A DNA stretch of 51,184 nt, taken from contig JALQYK010000062.1 of assembly GCA_023254115.1 (NCBI GenBank), forward strand, positions 1 through 51,184, given 5' to 3'. The position numbers were made by a program, and so were the translations under genes. Source of the DNA: Polynucleobacter sp. GTDB taxonomy: Bacteria; Pseudomonadota; Gammaproteobacteria; Burkholderiales; Burkholderiaceae. Positions 1-10,493 of this stretch are shown here, piece by piece; within the stretch, counting starts at the first letter, position 1; every line of letters begins with the position of its first letter. Under the pieces are notes generated by a model. The model saw only the letters and a list, made by a program, of their open reading frames with translations. It had not been told where the DNA came from and ran no database searches.

Positions 1-140
1 GGAGAGCCTTGTAGTAAAAGGCTCTTCGATTTCAAGAGGTTAGTGGTGAAAATGGTGGTTTAAATTCACTACACATCAACTACACACCAAGCGGTTTTTA
101 GAGGTGTGTAGTAAATAGCAGTTTTAGCAGTAAAAGTAGT
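1..140. repeat. 140-bp direct repeat, left copy
   Basis: These 140 bases are identical, by direct reading, to 51045-51184 at the other end of the window. The repeat is non-coding. It contains an 8-bp stem (AGAGCCTT/AAGGCTCT, about 4-26) that looks like the end of a terminator or processed RNA, and a perfect 10-bp inverted repeat at 79-112. The left copy leads within 17 bases into tRNA-Ile. It may be a true chromosomal direct repeat, part of a duplicated tRNA locus, or the overlap left when a circular or repeat-bounded contig is assembled. Confidence 0.95.
79..112. repeat. perfect 10-bp inverted repeat upstream of tRNA-Ile
   Basis: ACTACACACC at 79-88 is the exact reverse complement of GGTGTGTAGT at 103-112, with a 14-base spacer. 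A related half (CACTACACAT) lies just upstream at about 68-76. No T-run follows, so it is not an obvious terminator. It could be a protein or recombinase binding site or a hairpin in the tRNA leader. The same arm pair recurs in the right-hand repeat. Confidence 0.7.
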
Positions 141-157
141 ACCTAAAAACAGTTTTA

Positions 158-440
158 GGGCCCATAGCTCAGTTGGTTAGAGCAGAGGACTCATAGCGAT
201 AAGTTGTGCCTTATGCGTGGAAACTGCATAAGGGATGGTGTCAAATTCGGTGAAAGCTAAGTCGTAAGATATGCCAACGCCGAGCCAAGCTTAGTAGAAA
301 TACTTTGAAGGTGTAGAGACTGTACGGGTAGGTCGTAAAGACAAGAGACAGTCCAGACTACAAACTGGAAACAGGCAGTGAAAACTGTAGTAGTAAGCAT
401 AATCCTTTGGTCCGCGGTTCAAGTCCGCGAGGGCCCACCA
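158..440 (+). tRNA. ileX: tRNA-Ile(CAU), interrupted by a group I intron
   Basis: The exons join into a full tRNA: acceptor GGGCCC pairs with GGGCCC before ACCA, the D stem is GCUC/GAGC, the anticodon stem GAGGA/UCCUU closes loop CUCAUAA, and the T stem CGCGG/CCGCG carries loop UUCAAGU. CCA is encoded at 438-440. Bases 7 and 66 of the acceptor are A and A, so the stem is effectively 6 bp. A CAU anticodon could mean Met, but the GGGCCC acceptor and overall sequence match the betaproteobacterial minor tRNA-Ile whose C34 becomes lysidine for AUA decoding. The anticodon loop is broken by an intron of about 206 nt, so function depends on splicing. Confidence 0.93.
195..400 (+). ncRNA. group I self-splicing intron (IC3-like) in the tRNA-Ile anticodon loop
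   Basis: Removing 206 nt here restores a canonical anticodon arm. The intron has an internal guide GUG (206-208) able to pair with exon CAU, a perfect 8-bp P2 (CCUUAUGC 209-216, GCAUAAGG 226-233), and core blocks at 236-253, 274-292, 305-321 and 348-355 that closely resemble my recollection of the Azoarcus tRNA-Ile(CAU) intron. P9 is likely ACUACA/UGUAGU after 355. No reading frame for a homing endonuclease fits. Because CAU occurs at both junctions, 192-397 gives the same spliced tRNA. The first register keeps the U.G pair at the 5' site, the second ends the intron in the conserved terminal G. Confidence 0.92.
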
Positions 441-448
441 GTCGTAAC

Positions 449-483
449 AAACCCTCATCAGCAATGATGGGGGTTTTTCTTTT
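449..483 (+). terminator. rho-independent terminator of tRNA-Ile
   Basis: The stem ACCCTCATCA (451-460) pairs with TGATGGGGGT (465-474), with one G.T pair and a GCAA tetraloop. It is followed by a T-rich run to 483. It lies 10 bases after the encoded CCA. A near copy occurs at 50939-50967. Confidence 0.85.
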
Positions 484-557
484 GGGCTCAATGCACAGCT
501 TAATAAAATGCTTAAATTTGGTGTAATATTATTTAACTGAAACTTAAAACAAATCAA

Positions 558-905
558 ATGATACAAACTGATAGCGGTCTTCGCTACGAGGATAAAAAAA
601 TCGGAACAGGATCAGATGCGACTGTCGGTAAATCAGTCGCAATTCATTACACCTGCTGGATAACAGGTTATGGTAAAAATCCCTTGAAAATTGGTGAGAC
701 CTCTCGTTCAGACCCTTTTTGGTTCACAATTGGGGATAAGTTGGTTATTCAGGGTTGGGATGAAGCAGTGAGAGGAATGAAGGTTGGAGGGATCAGAGAG
801 GTCATAGTTCCGCCGCACTTGGCCTATGGTGGAGAAGGCCTTGGTAAAAAAGTACCACCTAATTCTGAATTAATCACTGAAATAGAATTACTCATCATCG
901 GTTAA
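558..905 (+). CDS. FKBP-type peptidyl-prolyl cis-trans isomerase
   Basis: This 115-residue protein is a single FKBP domain that catalyses cis-trans isomerisation of proline peptide bonds. Family signatures are visible: VAIHYTCWITG near the N terminus, FTIGDKLVIQGWDEAVRGMKVGG (split as FTIGDKLVIQGW then DEAVRGMKVGG) in the middle, and PPHLAYGGEG with IPPNSEL-like KVPPNSEL near the end. The length is that of the minimal cytoplasmic FKBP fold and no signal peptide is seen. The ATG at 558 has no strong Shine-Dalgarno sequence. It stands alone on the plus strand between the tRNA terminator and the convergent flagellar operon, so a direct flagellar role is not implied. Confidence 0.93.
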   Translation: MIQTDSGLRYEDKKIGTGSDATVGKSVAIHYTCWITGYGKNPLKIGETSRSDPFWFTIGDKLVIQGWDEAVRGMKVGGIREVIVPPHLAYGGEGLGKKVPPNSELITEIELLIIG

Positions 906-1857: not shown

Positions 1858-4029
1858 TTAACTTCTTATCCAAGTATTAATAACTTGGTGGACCTTATTG
1901 AAATCGGTTGGTTTTTCAATAAAGTCATCCATACCCGCCAAAATACAATCTTCAATATTTTTATCAGAAGAATTTGCTGATAAAGAAATAATTGGTACGC
2001 GCTGAATTTGATTTTCATCTTCATAGAGCCTGATAATCTTGGTTGTTTCAATACCTGATAAGCCAGGCATTTGAACATCCATGATGATCATGTCAAAACG
2101 CTTGTTTCTAGTTATTTCCTTGATTGCAGCCTCGCCATCTGATGCAGTTGTAACACGCAGACCTATTTTTTGTAAGAATTTCTCCATCAATTCAAGAGTT
2201 GTTGCGTGATCATCGACAAGTAAAACTCGCCCATTCATATGCAAGCTTTCAAAATCTATTTTTGCTGGGGACTGCTTGCTGGATAAAGGAGTTAATTTTG
2301 GTGAAGAATTAATTTGGGAAGACTCTTCAATCACATAAGAAAAATCAATATTAAAGTAAAAGCACGATCCAGCCCCTTCTTCAGATCGTAATTCTAATTT
2401 GCTACCGTGGCGCTCAACAATTCTTTTAGAAATCGATAAGCCTAGACCAGTTCCACCATAGTTTCTTAAGATTGATGAATTAGCTTGAGTGAAAGGCTCA
2501 AAAATTAAATTTTGTTCATCTTTTTTAATTCCAATTCCTGTATCAGATACTGAAAATCTAATGACTATGGAATCGTCGTCTCTGGAAATTTCTTCAGCCG
2601 CAATTTCAATAGACCCATGGCTAGTAAATTTAAAACTGTTTTCAATCAAATTGATTAAAACTTGTTGTAGTTGAAACTCGTCACACTTAACTTTTATATC
2701 TGGCGAAATCTCATTAATGAAAAAAATTCGAACGTCATTTTTAGATCTATTTTTAAATAAGAATTTAAGATTTTCAAATAAAAAATCAATGCTATAAAAA
2801 TTCTCATGCAGTATAAATCCTGATTCTGATAGTTTATTAAATTTCAGAATTTCATTAACTAATTTTGTAAGATAAATTGTGGCAGATTTAATTGAATCAT
2901 TATTTTTGACAAGCTCTTCTTTTGTGATTGATGAATCATTAGAGAGTTGGCTAAGTCCAAAAATAACATTGAGTGGGGTTCTTATTTCATGAGAAAGCAA
3001 TGTAATGACATGCCCTTTCTCGGAAAGATTATCTTGTAACTCAATCGTTTTTAGTCGATTAATTACTTCAGCCCTCATTAATCTATTAACAAAGTAGATT
3101 AATGATAAGACCGCTGCAATCATCGTAAATATCGCAGCAGTAAGAACTTTAAGCCTATAGCTTTTCTCAATTAACCAACTTGAAAGAAGATTCTCCTTGC
3201 TAATATAAACTGCCCATGAAAAAGGCGCCATGTCAAATGGTGTCGAGGTGAAAAGAAGATCCCCATTTTTTTTATAATTTACTAACGTTGTGAGATCTGT
3301 AAACTTCACATCTCCTTTGGTAAAGTTTTTATCTAGCCTGCTATCAAATATTGTTTTGTTTGCTTCATCAAATATGAGGGTATTTATCAAAAAAGAATGG
3401 TTAAAATCTTCGCTAAGGTTTAAAAGAATTTTAGGGTTTATTTCCATTAATAGGAATCCCAAACCACTCCTGTTATTTAATTCAATTTCACGTAAAAAGA
3501 CAATTTTCTTAGATTCTTTGTTTGTGTAAACATAAGAGCTTGCTTTATTTTTATTTAATTTAAAGTTTTCAAGAGTAACTTTATCAATTCCAGCTTTGCT
3601 GGCATAGGAAGGATTTTCTGGATGTTCCGCCGGAACTCCTTGAGGGTCAAGTAAAAATAATTCAATATCAATATTATTTAACTCTGGAAACTTCTCATAA
3701 ACTTTTTGAAGGGACACTTTTTTAAGAATGCCACTCTCTTTAGTTAATTGAATCTCAACTTCTTTCTTAATGTTTAAATTCAATTGATCATAACTTTTTA
3801 CCTGTGAGCGGATGGCCTCATCAAATTTTTCCCATTGATAGCTATATTCAAGAGTTTGTAAATTAAATACATCTTGCTCTTTGTTTTCAAGTAATTTAAT
3901 TGCACGAAATATAACAAAAGAAAAAATTAAAAAAATAATAAAAATTGTTAATAAGTGAAATTTATTTTTGAATAAAACTTCTCGCTTAATTTTCTTTGTG
4001 GTTTCTGTTAAATTTTTATCGAAAGGCAT
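1858..4029 (-). CDS. hybrid sensor histidine kinase (HK-REC)
   Basis: This 723-residue kinase has membrane segments at about 24-42 and 295-314 flanking a 250-residue periplasmic sensor region of Cache-like length. HisKA follows with H347 in LLSHEIRTPLN. The HATPase_c domain carries the N box (NLIENSFKFT), G1 box (DTGIGI) and G2 (GGTGLGLSI). A C-terminal receiver from residue 600 has the phospho-acceptor D651 in MIIMDVQMPG. The layout implies His-Asp-His-Asp relay signalling. The HPt gene ends only 3 bases upstream in the same operon, and a NarL-type regulator lies at 10637-11272. It is markedly A+T-rich and Lys/Asn/Ile-rich compared with fli genes. The ligand is unknown, and no CheA relation is seen. 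Confidence 0.93.
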   Translation of the reverse strand: MPFDKNLTETTKKIKREVLFKNKFHLLTIFIIFLIFSFVIFRAIKLLENKEQDVFNLQTLEYSYQWEKFDEAIRSQVKSYDQLNLNIKKEVEIQLTKESGILKKVSLQKVYEKFPELNNIDIELFLLDPQGVPAEHPENPSYASKAGIDKVTLENFKLNKNKASSYVYTNKESKKIVFLREIELNNRSGLGFLLMEINPKILLNLSEDFNHSFLINTLIFDEANKTIFDSRLDKNFTKGDVKFTDLTTLVNYKKNGDLLFTSTPFDMAPFSWAVYISKENLLSSWLIEKSYRLKVLTAAIFTMIAAVLSLIYFVNRLMRAEVINRLKTIELQDNLSEKGHVITLLSHEIRTPLNVIFGLSQLSNDSSITKEELVKNNDSIKSATIYLTKLVNEILKFNKLSESGFILHENFYSIDFLFENLKFLFKNRSKNDVRIFFINEISPDIKVKCDEFQLQQVLINLIENSFKFTSHGSIEIAAEEISRDDDSIVIRFSVSDTGIGIKKDEQNLIFEPFTQANSSILRNYGGTGLGLSISKRIVERHGSKLELRSEEGAGSCFYFNIDFSYVIEESSQINSSPKLTPLSSKQSPAKIDFESLHMNGRVLLVDDHATTLELMEKFLQKIGLRVTTASDGEAAIKEITRNKRFDMIIMDVQMPGLSGIETTKIIRLYEDENQIQRVPIISLSANSSDKNIEDCILAGMDDFIEKPTDFNKVHQVINTWIRS

Positions 4030-4447: not shown

Positions 4448-5197
4448 CTACGTATTGCTTGATAAGCCTGTCCATTTCTGATTTCTTAAAACACCACGCA
4501 TGCGAGCTATTGCTTGGCTATGAATTTGAGAGACTCTTGATTCTGAAATTTCTAAAACGACACCAATTTCTTTCAAGTTCAATTCTTGCTCGTAATAGAG
4601 ACCCATTAATAACTTTTCTCTCTCTGGAAGATTTTCAATCGCTTTGATAACTGCTGCACGAAATCCATGATTTATAAGAGCTTGTAATGGATCGCTGGAG
4701 GTATCAGAATAAAATCTATCCAGAAAATGATCGCTATCTTCTCCACCACCCCCATTAAAATCGTCAAAGTAGACTAACTGGTGGCCTGCGCCCTCAGAAA
4801 GCATCTTTTGATACTCTTTAAGTGATACCTTCAGCTTTTTAGCAGTTTCAATCTCAGTTGGATGTCTAGAATACTCTTGTTGTAATTCATTGAGTACCAA
4901 CTCAATTTTTTTCATGTTTTTACGCGTTCCGCGTGGCATCCAATCATTTTCCCTCAATTGATCTAGCATTGCCCCACGGATTCTTTGAACGGCATAGGTT
5001 TCAAACTGAGCTTGAACTGTTTCCTCGTATTTAGATAAAGCATCCAGTAAACCAATCATCCCCGCTTGTATTAGATCATCTACTTCGATATTAGGGGGTA
5101 GCTTAGCTTTCAGTTGATGAGCTAATTTTTTGACCATTGGGGTGTGTTTGGTCAATACCTCTTCTTTGATTGTGCGCCCCTTTGAGTCGTACATCAC
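4448..5197 (-). CDS. fliA: flagellar sigma factor FliA (sigma-28)
   Basis: FliA directs RNA polymerase to late flagellar promoters and is held by FlgM until hook completion. The 249-residue protein has region 2 (DDLIQAGMIGLLDALSKYE, then FETYAVQRIRGAMLDQLRE and DWMPRGTR), region 3, and a C-terminal region 4 helix-turn-helix (LNLKEIGVVLEISESRVSQI). The length and the RxxRGAMLDxLR signature are diagnostic. The start overlaps the flhG stop by 4 bases, indicating translational coupling. Its gene sits at the end of the flhBAFG set, as is common in beta- and gammaproteobacteria. Matching promoters are seen before flgM, fliC and others in this window. Confidence 0.97.
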   Translation of the reverse strand: MMYDSKGRTIKEEVLTKHTPMVKKLAHQLKAKLPPNIEVDDLIQAGMIGLLDALSKYEETVQAQFETYAVQRIRGAMLDQLRENDWMPRGTRKNMKKIELVLNELQQEYSRHPTEIETAKKLKVSLKEYQKMLSEGAGHQLVYFDDFNGGGGEDSDHFLDRFYSDTSSDPLQALINHGFRAAVIKAIENLPEREKLLMGLYYEQELNLKEIGVVLEISESRVSQIHSQAIARMRGVLRNQKWTGLSSNT

Positions 5198-6042
5198 TGA
5201 ACCTCTACGCGTTGATGGTTCTCGGGGGCTGATACATAAGATTTTCTTGCTACGGTTGGTTCTTTGAGTATGTTGCTGGCTATTTCCTTAAAGATATCAA
5301 CTGACGGTGAATCCGGAAAAGTCTCAAATATTGATTTACCAATTTTGCTCGCTTTTGCCAGGTCATCATCGTGGATGATATTGCCCAATGGGACTATGGA
5401 TATCGACAAATGATTACTCGCCGTGATTGAAATATTTCTTTGAATTAACTGAGATTCTTCTTTATCGTTACCAGTGACGACTATGTTTACTTTCAGTTCT
5501 GAAATCTTCGTGCTTAATTTCTTGAGAAGTGTGTAAGCCTTTTTGATTGAATTTTCTTGATTGTTTACTAAAACAATCACTTGCCCACCAGTTATTTCCT
5601 CTAGGTGTTCTGTAATTTCATCATTTATATCAATATCAATGAATGAAATTGTGGATTTCTCAGTGTTTTCTTCAATCAAGCTCAGTATTTCATTTAAGGG
5701 CCTGATTTGGTTTTCTGAAACTTCTGAAGTTCTAAAAACTTTAGTAATCCCAATCCTATTAGCACTACCATTAATTGATGGAGTTGTTAAAGACAGATAA
5801 TTATTTATTTTAGTTTGTGAGTTTATTGGCTTATTTTTTAAGATTGAGCTAATGCCATCTGAATTCCTGTTGGCATCAATTAAGTTCACCGACTCACCGC
5901 TATTAAGAATAGCAGCGCTTATATTCAATAAAATTGAATTTCTATCAATAGGATTAAGTGCTGAAAGAACTATAAAGCTCTTATTGCCTCGATTACCCAG
6001 TAGAGTCCTAAGACCTTCTGCTTGGTCTTTAAGATTTAACAT
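5194..6042 (-). CDS. flhG: FlhG (FleN/MinD-like) flagellar number regulator, degenerate P-loop
   Basis: The N terminus DQAEGLRTLL is the conserved FlhG activator segment that stimulates FlhF GTPase, and position after flhF and before fliA fits flhG. The 282 residues retain the MinD-like strand/helix rhythm (VNLIDANRNSDGISSILK, ISFIDIDIND). However, the deviant Walker A KGGxGK[ST] is replaced by SALNPIDRNSILLN, with no signature lysines. Betaproteobacterial FlhG proteins are often divergent here, but this one looks unlikely to bind ATP in the usual way. It overlaps flhF by 14 bases and fliA by 4. It could still restrain FlhF through the N-terminal motif. Confidence 0.85.
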   Translation of the reverse strand: MLNLKDQAEGLRTLLGNRGNKSFIVLSALNPIDRNSILLNISAAILNSGESVNLIDANRNSDGISSILKNKPINSQTKINNYLSLTTPSINGSANRIGITKVFRTSEVSENQIRPLNEILSLIEENTEKSTISFIDIDINDEITEHLEEITGGQVIVLVNNQENSIKKAYTLLKKLSTKISELKVNIVVTGNDKEESQLIQRNISITASNHLSISIVPLGNIIHDDDLAKASKIGKSIFETFPDSPSVDIFKEIASNILKEPTVARKSYVSAPENHQRVEVQ

Positions 6043-7246
6043 AAGCAGATTCTTTTTGGGTTAGTACCTGTTGGCTTGTTGATGCTATAGCAGGCAACTC
6101 CACTTCTTCATAAAGAGTTGCACTGGTAAATTTATTCACCACAAAAGCCTGATTAATTAGTTCGCTCGGATTTACTGCACTTATATCTTCAGGTACTCTT
6201 TGACCGGTACTGAGATAGTAAAGTCTTAGTTTTTGCCTAATGATCACGTCTATAGCATTTCCAAGATTTACTGCTTCATCAATCTTGGTTAATACGCACC
6301 CGTTAAGTCCTGAACCACTGTATGCACTGACCACCTCATACAATGTTTCAATGTTAGTTGTTGCGTTGACGCAAAGTAAACGTTTGAGAGCTACATCTGT
6401 CGCAGAAAGCATGGCAATCTGCTCACTGACCTTTTGATCTCTTTGACTCATGCCAACGGTATCAATAAGAACCATGTGTTTTGATTTAAGTTGGTTCAGA
6501 GCAAGATTTAAGTCAGCTTCGTCCTTGACTGAGTGAACCATGACGCCAAGAATCTTTCCATAAATACGTAATTGCTCCTCGGCACCAATTCTGTATCCAT
6601 CTGTTGTGATCAGTGCTAAATTACTTGAGCCATGGCGCATCACATAACGAGCTGCAATTTTGGCCGTGGTGGTTGTCTTGCCAACACCTGTTGGACCAAC
6701 CAGGGCATAAACTCCACCCTGATCTAAAAATTCATCTTCATTTGGTAATGTGGATATATTTCTCACTAAGCAGTTTTTCATCCACTCAAGTGTTTGGTAT
6801 TTATCAAGCTCCAGTGGAGATTTTTCTATGAGATATCGAGAGAGACTGGCGCTAAATCCAAGACCAAAGAGTTCTCTAAGTAATTCTGATTTAATGGGAT
6901 TCTGTTCTTGGAGCTTGCCCCAAGATAACTCGGAAATTTGAGCTTGCAGTGAATCTCTTATCGACCTAATTTCCCCCATGAAGTCACTCATATCAAATGT
7001 GGGGGCAGAGGTGGTATTGATAATGATCGGAGCTTGTTGCTTAGGAAAGACGGTCTTATTGATTGGCTGTATTTCTGGATCATGCCTATGAACCACATCT
7101 TTAAAGTCATTTTCGCTACAGGCCAGTATTTCGATGCCTTCCTCAATACTTCTATTGGAAAGAATCATTGCATTGGGCCCTAATGCATTTCTGACATGAT
7201 CCAGCGTTTCCCCACTAGTTGATCCTATGAATCGTTGAACTTTCAT
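6029..7246 (-). CDS. flhF: flagellar biosynthesis SRP-type GTPase FlhF
   Basis: FlhF is an SRP-family GTPase that marks the site of flagellar assembly, typically a pole. The 405-residue protein begins with the family signature MKVQRFIGST and a variable basic/acidic B region. The NG domain has P-loop GPTGVGKTTTTAKIA at about 184-198, then DGYRIGAEEQL, the G3 motif VLIDTVGMSQRDQ and G4-like LTKIDEA. The start overlaps the flhA stop by 4 bases and its end overlaps flhG by 14, so translation is coupled. With FlhG it predicts a controlled, probably polar, flagellum. Confidence 0.97.
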   Translation of the reverse strand: MKVQRFIGSTSGETLDHVRNALGPNAMILSNRSIEEGIEILACSENDFKDVVHRHDPEIQPINKTVFPKQQAPIIINTTSAPTFDMSDFMGEIRSIRDSLQAQISELSWGKLQEQNPIKSELLRELFGLGFSASLSRYLIEKSPLELDKYQTLEWMKNCLVRNISTLPNEDEFLDQGGVYALVGPTGVGKTTTTAKIAARYVMRHGSSNLALITTDGYRIGAEEQLRIYGKILGVMVHSVKDEADLNLALNQLKSKHMVLIDTVGMSQRDQKVSEQIAMLSATDVALKRLLCVNATTNIETLYEVVSAYSGSGLNGCVLTKIDEAVNLGNAIDVIIRQKLRLYYLSTGQRVPEDISAVNPSELINQAFVVNKFTSATLYEEVELPAIASTSQQVLTQKESAYVKS

Positions 7247-9312
7247 CCTAGTGCTCCTATGAGATTTGTTACTCTAATATTTCTTGTGCTTGGTAGTTCT
7301 GAGTGAGATAAAACTTTCAGTTGTGGCAACTTACGTCTTAAAAATTGAGATAGCATGCTTCTCATAGGCCCCGGTACCAAAAGTATCGGTGTGAGCCCAA
7401 GGTCTTCTTGCATTCTCGTTGCCTTAGTTGTCTCGTTAGTGAGAGTTTCAGCCAAGCCTGGCTCAATAGCGCTCTCATCTGAATTATTGATAACAGCCTG
7501 TAATAATAGTTTTTCAAGCTGAGTATCCAAAGTCATGACTGGAATTTCTTGAGATCCAGGGGAGATTTGATTGACGATAGCTCTACCAATGGCGATTCGT
7601 ACGACTGATGTTAAATAAATTGGATCTTGAGACTTACTAATATTTTCTGAAATGCTCTCAATAATTGTGTAGATATCCCGGATGTGAACACCTTCTTCAA
7701 GGAGGTTCTGCAGTACTTTTTGTAATGTTGTTAGAGGAATAACTTTTGGAACTAAATCTTCGATAAATTTCGACGATTCTTTTCCGATATGTTCTACCAA
7801 AGTTTGTACTTCTTGACGACCAAGTAACTCTGCAGCATGGGAAGACATGATGTGGTTAAGGTGTGTTGCAATAACTGTTCCAGCATCAACCACTGTATAA
7901 CCTAGTGATTGAGCGTGTTCTTGAAGATTGGCATCAATCCATGTGGCATCAAGTCCAAATGCTGGATCTTTTGTTGGAGTTCCCGGTAAAGTGCCTGTGA
8001 CCATGCCTGGATTGATGGCCATGAATTGATTCGCATTTGATTCACCAAAACCGACCTCAACACCTTTGAGTGTGATTCTGTATGCATTTGGACGAAGTTC
8101 AAGGTTATCTCTGATATGGACAGTGGGTGGAAGAAAACCTATTTCCTGCGCAAACTTTTTACGTATGCCCTTGATGCGTCTTAATAATTCCCCATTTTGA
8201 TTTTTATCAACCAGGTTAATGAGGCGATAACCAACTTCTAAGCCCAAAACATGCAAGGGTGATACATCTTTCCAACTTGCCTCTTCCATTTCAATAGGAG
8301 GAGCAATGACCACTTCATTAGATTGTGCCTCGGCCAATTTTGCTTTTCTTGAAAGGTTGTAGCCTAGACCAGCAATGATTCCGGAGAATAATAAGAATGC
8401 TAGGTTTGGCATTCCAGGAATGAGTCCTAAGCTTCCAATAATGATGGCGGTGATGTAAAGAACTTCTGGCCTCATAAACACTTGATTAGATAACTGACTT
8501 CCAATATCTTGATCACTAGCAACTCTTGAAACCACAGCACCAGCTGCTAGAGAAATAATCAAAGAAGGTATTTGAGCCACCAATCCATCACCAATGGCAA
8601 GTAAAAGATATGTATCGATTGCTTTTGAGAATCCCAAGTTATGTTGAAGCATTCCAATGGCAACGCCACCAATGATGTTAATGACTGTGATGATGATGCC
8701 CGCTACTGCATCGCCTCGCACATACTTGCTGGCACCGTCCATGGCGCCATAGAATTCAGCCTCTTGACCAACTTCAGTTCTTCTCTTTCTGGCCTCTGCT
8801 TCGCCAATCATGCCGGCATTTAAATCAGCATCAATCGCCATTTGCTTACCTGGCATAGCATCTAATGCAAATCTAGCGCCAACTTCAGCAATACGACCAG
8901 CACCTTTTGTGATGACCACAAAGTTGATGATGGTCAAAATGATAAAAACAATGGCTCCAACTAAATAATCACCAGCAATCAAAAAGTTACCAAAAGATTC
9001 AATGACCTTTCCCGCGGCTCCTGGTCCGGTATGACCATCACTCAATACGACTCGTGTTGAAGCAACGTTTAGTGCTAGTCTCAAAATTGTTGTAACCAAC
9101 AACACCGTTGGGAACACCATGAAGTCAAGTGGTCTAACCGTATAGAGAGCTGTCAATAAAACAATGATTGATAGGGCAATATTAAAAGTGAAAAGTACAT
9201 CCAAAATGAATGGTGGTACTGGTAAAACCATCATACCCAAAATCAGAACAACAATGATTGGGGCGGCTAGGCTCTTGCCTTTTATGTTTTTGAGTAATTC
9301 ACTGAAGTTCAT
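7243..9312 (-). CDS. flhA: flagellar type III export gate protein FlhA
   Basis: FlhA forms the nonameric export gate ring and uses proton motive force for export. The 689-residue protein has the usual length. The N-terminal half has about eight membrane helices with the signature RLALNVASTR and the conserved cytoplasmic loop GAMDGASKYVRGDAVAG. The C-terminal half from about 350 is the cytoplasmic substrate-docking domain. A 4-base overlap links it to flhB upstream and another to flhF downstream. Expression should follow flhB. Confidence 0.98.
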   Translation of the reverse strand: MNFSELLKNIKGKSLAAPIIVVLILGMMVLPVPPFILDVLFTFNIALSIIVLLTALYTVRPLDFMVFPTVLLVTTILRLALNVASTRVVLSDGHTGPGAAGKVIESFGNFLIAGDYLVGAIVFIILTIINFVVITKGAGRIAEVGARFALDAMPGKQMAIDADLNAGMIGEAEARKRRTEVGQEAEFYGAMDGASKYVRGDAVAGIIITVINIIGGVAIGMLQHNLGFSKAIDTYLLLAIGDGLVAQIPSLIISLAAGAVVSRVASDQDIGSQLSNQVFMRPEVLYITAIIIGSLGLIPGMPNLAFLLFSGIIAGLGYNLSRKAKLAEAQSNEVVIAPPIEMEEASWKDVSPLHVLGLEVGYRLINLVDKNQNGELLRRIKGIRKKFAQEIGFLPPTVHIRDNLELRPNAYRITLKGVEVGFGESNANQFMAINPGMVTGTLPGTPTKDPAFGLDATWIDANLQEHAQSLGYTVVDAGTVIATHLNHIMSSHAAELLGRQEVQTLVEHIGKESSKFIEDLVPKVIPLTTLQKVLQNLLEEGVHIRDIYTIIESISENISKSQDPIYLTSVVRIAIGRAIVNQISPGSQEIPVMTLDTQLEKLLLQAVINNSDESAIEPGLAETLTNETTKATRMQEDLGLTPILLVPGPMRSMLSQFLRRKLPQLKVLSHSELPSTRNIRVTNLIGALG

Positions 9313-10493
9313 GCAGGGCTCATCACTCTAGTTTTTTTATTAAGATCAGGACTGGAAGGCGCTTCTAAAATATCTAGGCCTGCTGGTATGGCAATTTGAC
9401 TTGGTTTTTGCGGTTGTATGCCGCCTTGTTTTTGATAAATGCGAAGCTGAAAAACATAGGCAAGTACTTGTGCAACTGCAGTGAATAAAGCGCTAGGTAT
9501 TTCTTGGTCCAGCTCAGCATGCTTGTAGAGCGCACGAGCTAATGGAGGCACTTCCACAATTTCAATATTATTTTGTTTTGCCAATTCACGAATCTTCAAA
9601 GCAACCTCACCTTGACCCTTTGCCAAAATGATGGGGGCTTTGTTTGAATTTTCTGGGTATTGCAAAGCAACTGAATAGTGTGTCGGGTTGGTAATGACGA
9701 CATCGGCGCTTGGTACTTTAGACATCATTCTGCGACGTGACATCTCTCTTTGTTGCGCTCTTATTTTTGCTTTTATTTCTGGGTTACCTTCAGTTTCCTT
9801 TGATTCATCTCTCAGCTCTTGCCGAGACATTTTCAATTTGTCTGTGTATCTATAAATTTGATATGGAACATCGATCATGCTGATGACAGATAGTGAAACC
9901 ACCATGAACGTCAGGCACCATAAAATAATGTATCCCTGTTGCGAGCTACTTTCTTGAATACTTTTTGTTAGTAAAGAATGAATGCTATCAAGCTGCGAAT
10001 TAACCAGCAACCAAGAAGCAAATCCAATAAAGGCCGTTTTTAAAATTGCTTTTAGTAATTCAACCAAAGAGTTGATTGAAAAAATATTACTGATTCCTTG
10101 AATGGGATTGAGTTTTTCAAAGTTTGGAATTAGTTTCTCTGCCGAGAATGTCCAGCCACCAATTAACAAAGGTGCACCGACTGCAGCCAGGAAAATTATT
10201 CCTAGTAGTGGAAGGAAAACGATACCTAGCTCAAATAAAAAGCTTTGGTAACTTAAAAATAATTCTGCTGAATTTAATTCTTTGATACTGGCAAAACTTA
10301 AGGTTTGGCTCATGCCAGTTTGAAGATTTTTTACTAGGCTGCCACCAATTAACCAGATGGAGATAGTGCCTGCTAGCAAAATGAAGAATGTTGAAAATTC
10401 TGTCGAGCGAGGAACGTCGCCAGACTCGCGTGCTTTTTCTAATCGTCGGGGGGATGCCGACTCGGTTTTTTCTAAATCACTTTCTTCAGCCAA
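9309..10493 (-). CDS. flhB: flagellar type III export switch protein FlhB
   Basis: FlhB is the membrane export component that switches substrate class from hook to filament. The 394-residue protein has four membrane helices in the first 210 residues. Its cytoplasmic tail carries the autocleavage motif NPTHY at 269-273. The tail after the helices contains basic KIRAQQREMSRRRM. It is the first gene of the flhB-flhA-flhF-flhG-fliA minus-strand run and has a 143-base upstream region before the regulator gene. A second, tail-only FlhB homologue is encoded at 34436-34741. Confidence 0.98.
   Translation of the reverse strand: MAEESDLEKTESASPRRLEKARESGDVPRSTEFSTFFILLAGTISIWLIGGSLVKNLQTGMSQTLSFASIKELNSAELFLSYQSFLFELGIVFLPLLGIIFLAAVGAPLLIGGWTFSAEKLIPNFEKLNPIQGISNIFSINSLVELLKAILKTAFIGFASWLLVNSQLDSIHSLLTKSIQESSSQQGYIILWCLTFMVVSLSVISMIDVPYQIYRYTDKLKMSRQELRDESKETEGNPEIKAKIRAQQREMSRRRMMSKVPSADVVITNPTHYSVALQYPENSNKAPIILAKGQGEVALKIRELAKQNNIEIVEVPPLARALYKHAELDQEIPSALFTAVAQVLAYVFQLRIYQKQGGIQPQKPSQIAIPAGLDILEAPSSPDLNKKTRVMSPA

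Follow-up and report, generated by a model that had tools for sequence, protein, structure and literature searches.

The 5' end of contig JALQYK010000062.1 of Polynucleobacter sp. (assembly GCA_023254115.1), analysed here over 51,184 nt (the window), carries a tRNA-Ile(CAU) gene interrupted in its anticodon loop. It raises the question of whether this gene holds a working intron on which the reading of AUA codons depends, as a preliminary description had proposed, and of how an intron without its own endonuclease gene came to lie there. ARAGORN in intron mode, with positions 101-500 scanned, reports a single tRNA (CAT) with a 206-nt insert (Table 1); with that mode off, no tRNA is called anywhere in the window. 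In the covariance comparison called for by the preliminary description, RF00028 aligned end to end at 182-378 with 30 bits (E 6.5e-6, curated cut-off 50); no Rfam family reaches its own cut-off in the window. The group I ancestry of the insert and tRNA-Ile(CAU) as its host gene, both put forward earlier, are supported, and an endonuclease gene is indeed absent, 206 nt leaving no room for one. The host gene is taken as tRNA-Ile(CAU) and not tRNA-Met because the intronless tRNA found downstream of rpoD in relatives is this same gene, and because TilS, which makes lysidine, is present in the window genome; it is also present in all nine other genomes compared. The draft assembly of the window genome comprises 1.6 Mb in 118 contigs, at 92.8% completeness.

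Table 1. Features of the window at and around the interrupted tRNA-Ile(CAU) gene.
Feature	Positions	Strand	Basis
Left end of integrative element (putative), cut by contig start	1-157	+	likeness to block in relatives
Arm-like sites in left end: ACTACACA; ACTACACACC; inverted GGTGTGTAGTAAAT	68-75; 79-88; 103-116	+	sequence
tRNA-Ile(CAU) gene with 206-nt insert	158-440	+	ARAGORN, intron mode
5' exon, type A register, ending ..GGACTCAT (last base standard U36)	158-194	+	ARAGORN; insertion after CAT in 41 distinct type A introns
Type A (Azoarcus-like) 5' part: guide GUG 206-208, P2, P3 5' strand GGTGTC 237-242, P4-P6	195-321	+	identity comparison
GAAGGTGTAGAGACT, longest stretch common to types A and B; hybrid junction in or beside it	307-321	+	longest common substring, 41 A x 9 B
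Type B 3' part: P3 3' strand GGGTAG 326-331, P7 3' strand 349-353, P8, P9, ending ..GTAAG before CAT	322-397	+	identity comparison
3' exon, type B register (CATAATCC..CCA)	398-440	+	ARAGORN; type B introns end TAAG^CATAATC
Native right flank of tRNA-Ile locus: terminator-like hairpin and FKBP-type isomerase gene (558-905)	441-905	+	flank match; Pfam FKBP_C 6.4e-25

Two introns of one anticodon loop and a mosaic of both

Judged by sequence, the tRNA-Ile(CAU) anticodon loop of Polynucleobacter is host to two different group I introns, here called type A, which is Azoarcus-like and inserted after U36, and type B, inserted after U33, 3 nt upstream of the type A point. The window intron was matched in 80 of 186 genomes of the genus (E up to 0.01). 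Among the full-length genes fetched from these, type A is represented by 41 distinct sequences of 203-222 nt, which start after CAT and end CGG^AATC, and type B by nine of 245-251 nt, which start after ACT and end TAAG^CATAATC; the window intron also fitted the type B expression and was excluded from the nine. As read from the sequences, CAU pairs with the guide GUG in type A, while in type B GACU pairs with GGUU and the CAU of the 3' exon can pair with AUG or GUG just 5' of the guide. P3 is GGUGUC/GGCACC in type A and CUACUC/GGGUAG in type B. Both types reach beyond the genus: of 399 sampled genomes of Burkholderiales, 26 gave type A matches (three of them Polynucleobacter) and 20 type B matches (one being the window genome), weak matches included in both counts. 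Seventeen loci outside the genus were inspected, and comprise eight tRNA-Ile genes with type A (one called tRNA-Pro by ARAGORN), one tRNA-Ile gene with type B (L211), and eight related introns in genes called tRNA-Leu, -Ser or -Phe by ARAGORN; L206 (G568), at its rpoD locus, we take to be the Azoarcus sequence. The open-access literature searched yielded no published name for the type B intron, nothing on Polynucleobacter group I introns and, in narrowly combined searches, nothing on Azoarcus tRNA-Ile or on introns, tRNA genes and islands or transfer together.

The window intron is a mosaic of the two types. Its positions 237-306 are 83-99% identical to the 41 type A sequences, against 63-71% to the nine of type B, whereas for positions 322-397 the identity is 93-100% with type B and 41-78% with type A (97-100% against 50-78% over 322-353, and 93-100% against 41-66% over 354-397). 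Positions 195-236 discriminate poorly by identity (71-98% to A, 76-81% to B), and their type A nature follows from the guide, P2 and the 5' splice site. When the intron was searched against the genus, its nucleotides 1-132 matched many type A genes; its 3' part shares exact runs of 77-91 nt, among the runs listed, with at least seven of the nine type B introns. The closeness to the Azoarcus group IC3 intron of tRNA-Ile(CAU) claimed in the preliminary description therefore holds for the first two thirds, up to about position 321, which have in common with it the host gene, insertion after U36, the guide GUG for CAU, P2 and P4-P6, a layout also seen in type A copies elsewhere in Burkholderiales. 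It fails for the last third, and an intact Azoarcus-type intron is rejected: unlike the Azoarcus-type intron, the window copy has the 3' third of type B, its P3 is broken, and AATCC is not preceded by a terminal G. With type B it shares P7, P8, P9, the 3' end GTAAG and the CAT opening the 3' exon, but it is without the 5' half of that intron, whose intact form has a different length, insertion point, guide and P3.

We consider it probable, with some confidence, that the window intron is a natural hybrid of type A and type B, recombined at the shared motif of 15 nt just before P7, and that the gene is likely a pseudogene. The event would probably have been a recombination between two tRNA-Ile copies, one per intron type, for example a deletion between tandem copies; the product would retain the guide and 5' splice site of type A, the 3' splice site of type B, and P3 strands that do not pair. 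Against this reading it can be held that the hybrid comes from one contig of one draft genome, and that its actual parent introns may not be among the sequences compared. A/B recombination is probably not unique to the window contig, since a junction of A-type P6 with B-type P7 to P9 is also present, as a truncated remnant, in two other genomes (L130 of G181 and L132 of G137). These remnants lie behind the same gene and thus perhaps go back to one inherited event, and they lend weaker support because type B introns outside the genus can carry a similar P6 (L211).

The same observations bear on whether the mosaic could have arisen in the computer, from a population holding intact A and B copies that the assembler joined near the contig start. 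The fragmentation of the draft into 118 contigs and the start of this contig just 157 nt upstream of the tRNA gene, within a repeat family, would allow such a chimera. The longest stretch shared by the 41 A and nine B sequences is only 15 nt, however, which is shorter than the words usually employed in assembly; a comparable junction recurs in the two truncated remnants; and no pure type A or type B copy, and so neither parent, was found elsewhere in the assembly, apart from two RF00028 matches with E 0.2-0.3. An assembly chimera at the shared stretch is thus, in our estimate, quite unlikely. Beside the same gene as one another, in two genomes, lie further type B remnants with the same internal deletion, the P1-P2 region being joined to P9 (L131 2092-2207 and L133 1817-1936).

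Splicing of the probable hybrid and the decoding of AUA

The combination of P3 strands in the window (GGUGUC/GGGUAG) forms two of six pairs, versus six of six in the other 11 of the 12 distinct P3/P7 combinations, which were collected from 127 places, some of them repeats of a single locus (five in the case of the window). Compensatory changes occur in P3 among the 11 fully paired combinations. Duplex energies for equal 11-nt strands are -9.8 kcal/mol for type A, -8.2 for type B and +0.1 for the hybrid. P7 is intact (5/5) in all 12 combinations, with GACTG/CAGTC in the window, and the U.G pair at the 5' splice site with the internal guide can be read from the sequence (CAU 192-194 / GUG 206-208). 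The splice sites themselves are 3 nt out of register, the 5' site being that of type A and the 3' site that of type B. In the register which the preliminary description assumed, that of type A, the 3' exon would start at 401; the insert then ends ..GTAAGCAT before AATCC, so that no terminal G stands ahead of the 3' exon. The G that is available, G397, precedes CAT, in a register other than that of the 5' splice site. On the type B reading the 5' exon would stop at 191 (..GGACT), in line with the nine distinct type B introns, which start after ACT. Splicing after 194 and after 397 would duplicate CAU, and use of these cognate sites would yield ..CU-CAU-CAU-AA.., a tRNA with a 10-nt anticodon loop.

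Because its P3 strands do not pair, the hybrid should not fold an active core. The intron is probably dead, and the window tRNA-Ile(CAU) gene is most likely a pseudogene, although in principle an atypical P3 or the help of a protein cofactor might still let the intron fold. The description of this copy as a small, fast self-splicing ribozyme is not upheld, its P3 strands coming from two introns. To suppose a functional Azoarcus-type group IC3 intron, splicing in vivo, one may point to a tRNA that is well-formed once the 206 nt are removed (ARAGORN), to the P1 guide, P2 and full P7, and to the E value of the RF00028 match; but the unpaired P3, the lack of G before AATCC, the origin of the two splice sites from introns with different insertion points, and a score below the Rfam cut-off, whereas five of five type A loci tested pass it (51.1-62.9 bits), leave such an intron very improbable. 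The Rfam score as a test of function was dropped, since four intact type B loci are also low (32.2-35.6 bits; L103, L099, L130 and L132 were included in this comparison and gave no row), and next to these values the score of the window says by itself nothing on the hybrid.

A dead intron can be tolerated because the window genome has intronless tRNA-Ile(CAU) copies, one complete (C51:529-605) and a second with its first bases missing at a contig end (C61:8863-8932), which is why ARAGORN did not call it. With these copies AUA decoding need not depend on the window gene. The preliminary description had named another intact tRNA-Ile(CAU) gene in the genome among the observations that would count against it; the C51 copy is one, and dependence of this genome on splicing is rejected. 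Of the 62 window ORFs with 100 aa or more, 53 were counted (overlapping and doubtful ones left out); 160 of their 1185 isoleucine codons are AUA, a moderate load. In this draft, tRNA-Lys and tRNA-Tyr are not among the genes that ARAGORN named in the fetched RF00005 stretches.

Among the 186 genomes of the genus, 66 have intron matches only, 82 intronless matches only, 14 both and 24 neither, with an intronless pattern that tolerated one mismatch only; the two kinds of match are nearly mutually exclusive (Fisher p 1.4e-16, uncorrected for kinship). Twenty-four of the 66 intron-only genomes consist of a single contig, are at least 99% complete and have an intron match of E <1e-10, these being matches and not all confirmed complete genes. 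It is plausible from these counts that AUA decoding depends on splicing in the intron-only genomes. Many genomes thus seem reliant on the intron-bearing gene as their only tRNA-Ile(CAU), which makes the in vivo need for self-splicing testable in free-living bacteria, and the exchange of intron halves in the window, breaking one core helix, provides a natural experiment.

A putative integrative element at the tRNA-Ile locus

In Polynucleobacter sp. 30F-ANTBAC (L052), and likewise at loci L137, L139, L141, L144, L146 and L128, a block corresponding to window positions 1-157 comes after an orphan 5' half of tRNA-Ile that ends CTCATAA. The start of the window accordingly resembles the left end of candidate elements that would split tRNA-Ile at CTCATAA and bring a replacement gene. 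A left-end pattern gave 80 matches in 60 of the 186 genus genomes, and none in the window genome, whose contig starts inside the left end. The matches are followed by an intron match in 60 cases, by an intronless gene in nine (8 genomes) and by neither in 11, of which seven lie at contig ends and one (G144) is perhaps due to chance. The pattern holds no intron sequence, but it was built from the left ends of intron-bearing loci and may therefore favour them; at least one intronless left end (L246, G131) escaped it.

The target of these elements would be the tRNA-Ile gene behind rpoD. Intact tRNA-Ile genes lie 71-74 nt after the rpoD motif in 18 of 22 stretches and 824-831 nt after it in three, the remaining stretch being without the motif. 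Orphan 5' halves are found at 71-74 nt in 11 of 15 stretches (279 and 832-833 nt in the others), and are followed after 197-233 nt by a complete gene in 14 of the 15; the fifteenth runs out at a contig end. In relatives the target is thus divided at a single core, with an element end to either side, in the order rpoD, spacer, orphan 5' half and left end, and, in G095, right end directly followed by the 3' half and native flank. The far end of the elements features arm-like ACACACC repeats and CTCATAA, beyond which lies a further left end, the 3' half of the host gene or a type A intron. Behind the right end of G095 (L190 5059) comes sequence 77% identical, over 1676 nt, to the flank of the intact gene in G132, and an integrase gene lies about 3 kb before that right end. 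The full order in this genome is rpoD-5' half | first left end, type A gene, cargo, right end | second left end, type A gene, cargo, integrase, right end | 3' half and native flank, which, on the combined results, reads as two tandem elements, each with its own intron-bearing gene.

Integrase genes were found in or near the elements of G095, G184 and G043, and none (E 1e-8) on the window contig or near the elements of G047, G118 and G105:C8. At L189 5959-6525, a few kb from an element right end, a tyrosine recombinase of 188 aa is encoded which has only the Phage_integrase domain (Pfam). At loci L138, L140, L146, L131, L133 and L135 a gene, or the end of one, stands before a tRNA-Ile 3' half, often with an intron piece between them, like worn element ends. 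The succession of orphan half, left end and intron-bearing gene occurs outside the genus too, in L202, L205, L211, L218 and L219, loci which were found via the intron and so give no information on frequency. The first unit of L218 has the Polynucleobacter left end, from which those of the other four differ.

The window itself would represent the left end of such a tRNA-Ile-targeting element with its complete replacement tRNA-Ile(CAU) gene, probably at the native rpoD/tRNA-Ile locus. Positions 441-898 are 82.6% identical to the sequence flanking tRNA-Ile in P. cosmopolitanus (L081), where that gene is intronless and lies downstream of rpoD. The primary sigma factor RpoD was not found in the window assembly (best match 39% identity), which fits a left neighbour of the contig that is missing from the assembly. 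The partial left end and the gene are present, but there is no cargo or right end between gene and native flank, and no second tRNA-Ile 3' half was found on the contig. Either the rest of the element was lost, perhaps in the event that formed the hybrid, or only the left-end unit entered; the mobility of the window element is inferred.

The intron-bearing gene might, on another account, not belong to an element at all, a unit of about 225 nt (left end and 5' half with its own promoter) having inserted upstream of a native intron-bearing gene. Consistent with this, the window gene adjoins the native right flank directly, the G013 gene lies within about 850 nt of native flank with again no right end between, tandem left-end units stand 225-233 nt apart in G123 and G043, and the T-arm of the window copy matches those of C51 and L081. 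The two complete intron-bearing genes between the native halves of G095 argue against it, and we think such a unit unlikely, preferring a replacement gene carried inside the element.

To the right of the FKBP gene the window continues with a helix-turn-helix protein (920-1831), 70% identical to a protein in P. meluiroseus (L057), and a hybrid histidine kinase with receiver domain (1858-4029). A stretch of flagellar-type genes follows (4448-10493, Pfam), with a sigma-70-family factor (4448-5197, perhaps FliA), an SRP54-type GTPase (6029-7246, perhaps FlhF), an FlhA-type FHIPEP protein (7243-9312) and an FlhB-type protein (9309-10493).

Possible carriage of introns by mobile DNA

For the spread of the intron the preliminary description had left a choice between reverse splicing and vertical descent, and thereby missed a third route, that of an intron-bearing gene carried inside an integrative element. 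The loci described above suggest that intron-bearing tRNA genes travel in mobile DNA that breaks the host's own tRNA gene. Carriage of this kind could spread introns lacking endonucleases, and the replacement tRNA of an integrative element would be a concrete route for them between bacteria.

Both intron insertion points, after U33 and after U36, lie inside the 7-bp crossover core. It is tempting to combine these observations in one reading, in which introns A and B would be kept in the replacement genes as a partial shield from the element's own integrase, with self-splicing restoring the tRNA, while the elements would spread the endonuclease-less introns across Burkholderiales and recombination between tandem copies would make hybrids; taken as a whole, we regard this reading as tentative and rather doubtful. 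In favour of a shield, 60 of 69 readable left-end matches precede an intron, a proportion that the pattern may inflate if it favours intron-bearing loci. An element right end abuts a type A intron at its 5' junction in four genomes among the fetched loci (G105, G143, G045 and G044), with three different right ends, those of G045 and G044 being alike. Type A genes are thus hit, and the role as a shield is weakened. With a narrow pattern, no right end abutting a type B intron was found in the fetched loci. Also against the shield, intronless replacement genes persist in 8 genomes; moreover, 5' halves in rescue context are split again in G043, G123 and G226. With type A genes hit in four genomes and nine of 80 left-end matches having intronless rescue genes, the strict shield hypothesis is not upheld. 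A passenger model requires no shield. By our own patterns, arms and upstream orphan half alike are lacking in nine of 52 distinct type A and 10 of 21 distinct type B contexts, L205 and L211 being counted among contexts without a left end because the script read their upstream half as intact. Protection of genes from integrases by introns becomes, in any case, a testable question in bacteria.

Elements of related design are known. In the Islander paper (PMC4383910), genomic islands supply a tRNA fragment that restores the target. The present loci resemble these islands, as described there, in the tRNA split in its anticodon loop, the displaced fragments at the ends and, in some copies, tyrosine integrases; they differ in that their target is left divided, while some 200 nt inside the left end there is a complete gene, often with an intron. 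For archaea, Sugahara 2012 (PMC3293823) suggests an element as intron vector and proposes that an intron may block later invaders, and the vector idea is also cited in PMC8371274. As in our loci, the archaeal case (PMC3293823) combines the 5' fragment of a tRNA with an inserted element and a tRNA that bears an intron, whereas its introns form a bulge-helix-bulge and are cut by tRNA splicing endonucleases, in place of the two kinds of bacterial group I intron found here.

A phage origin was considered and rejected: of the patterns run on viral contigs, two gave 0 matches and the other a single contig with a type A gene, upstream of which no left end was present within 330 nt. No record covering 80% of the query came up when plasmids were searched with the type A gene and phages with the type B gene. 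Positions 190287-190464 of a 735-kb uncultured phage record (H5, LR756501.1) align with 54% of the type B gene query at 70.7% identity.
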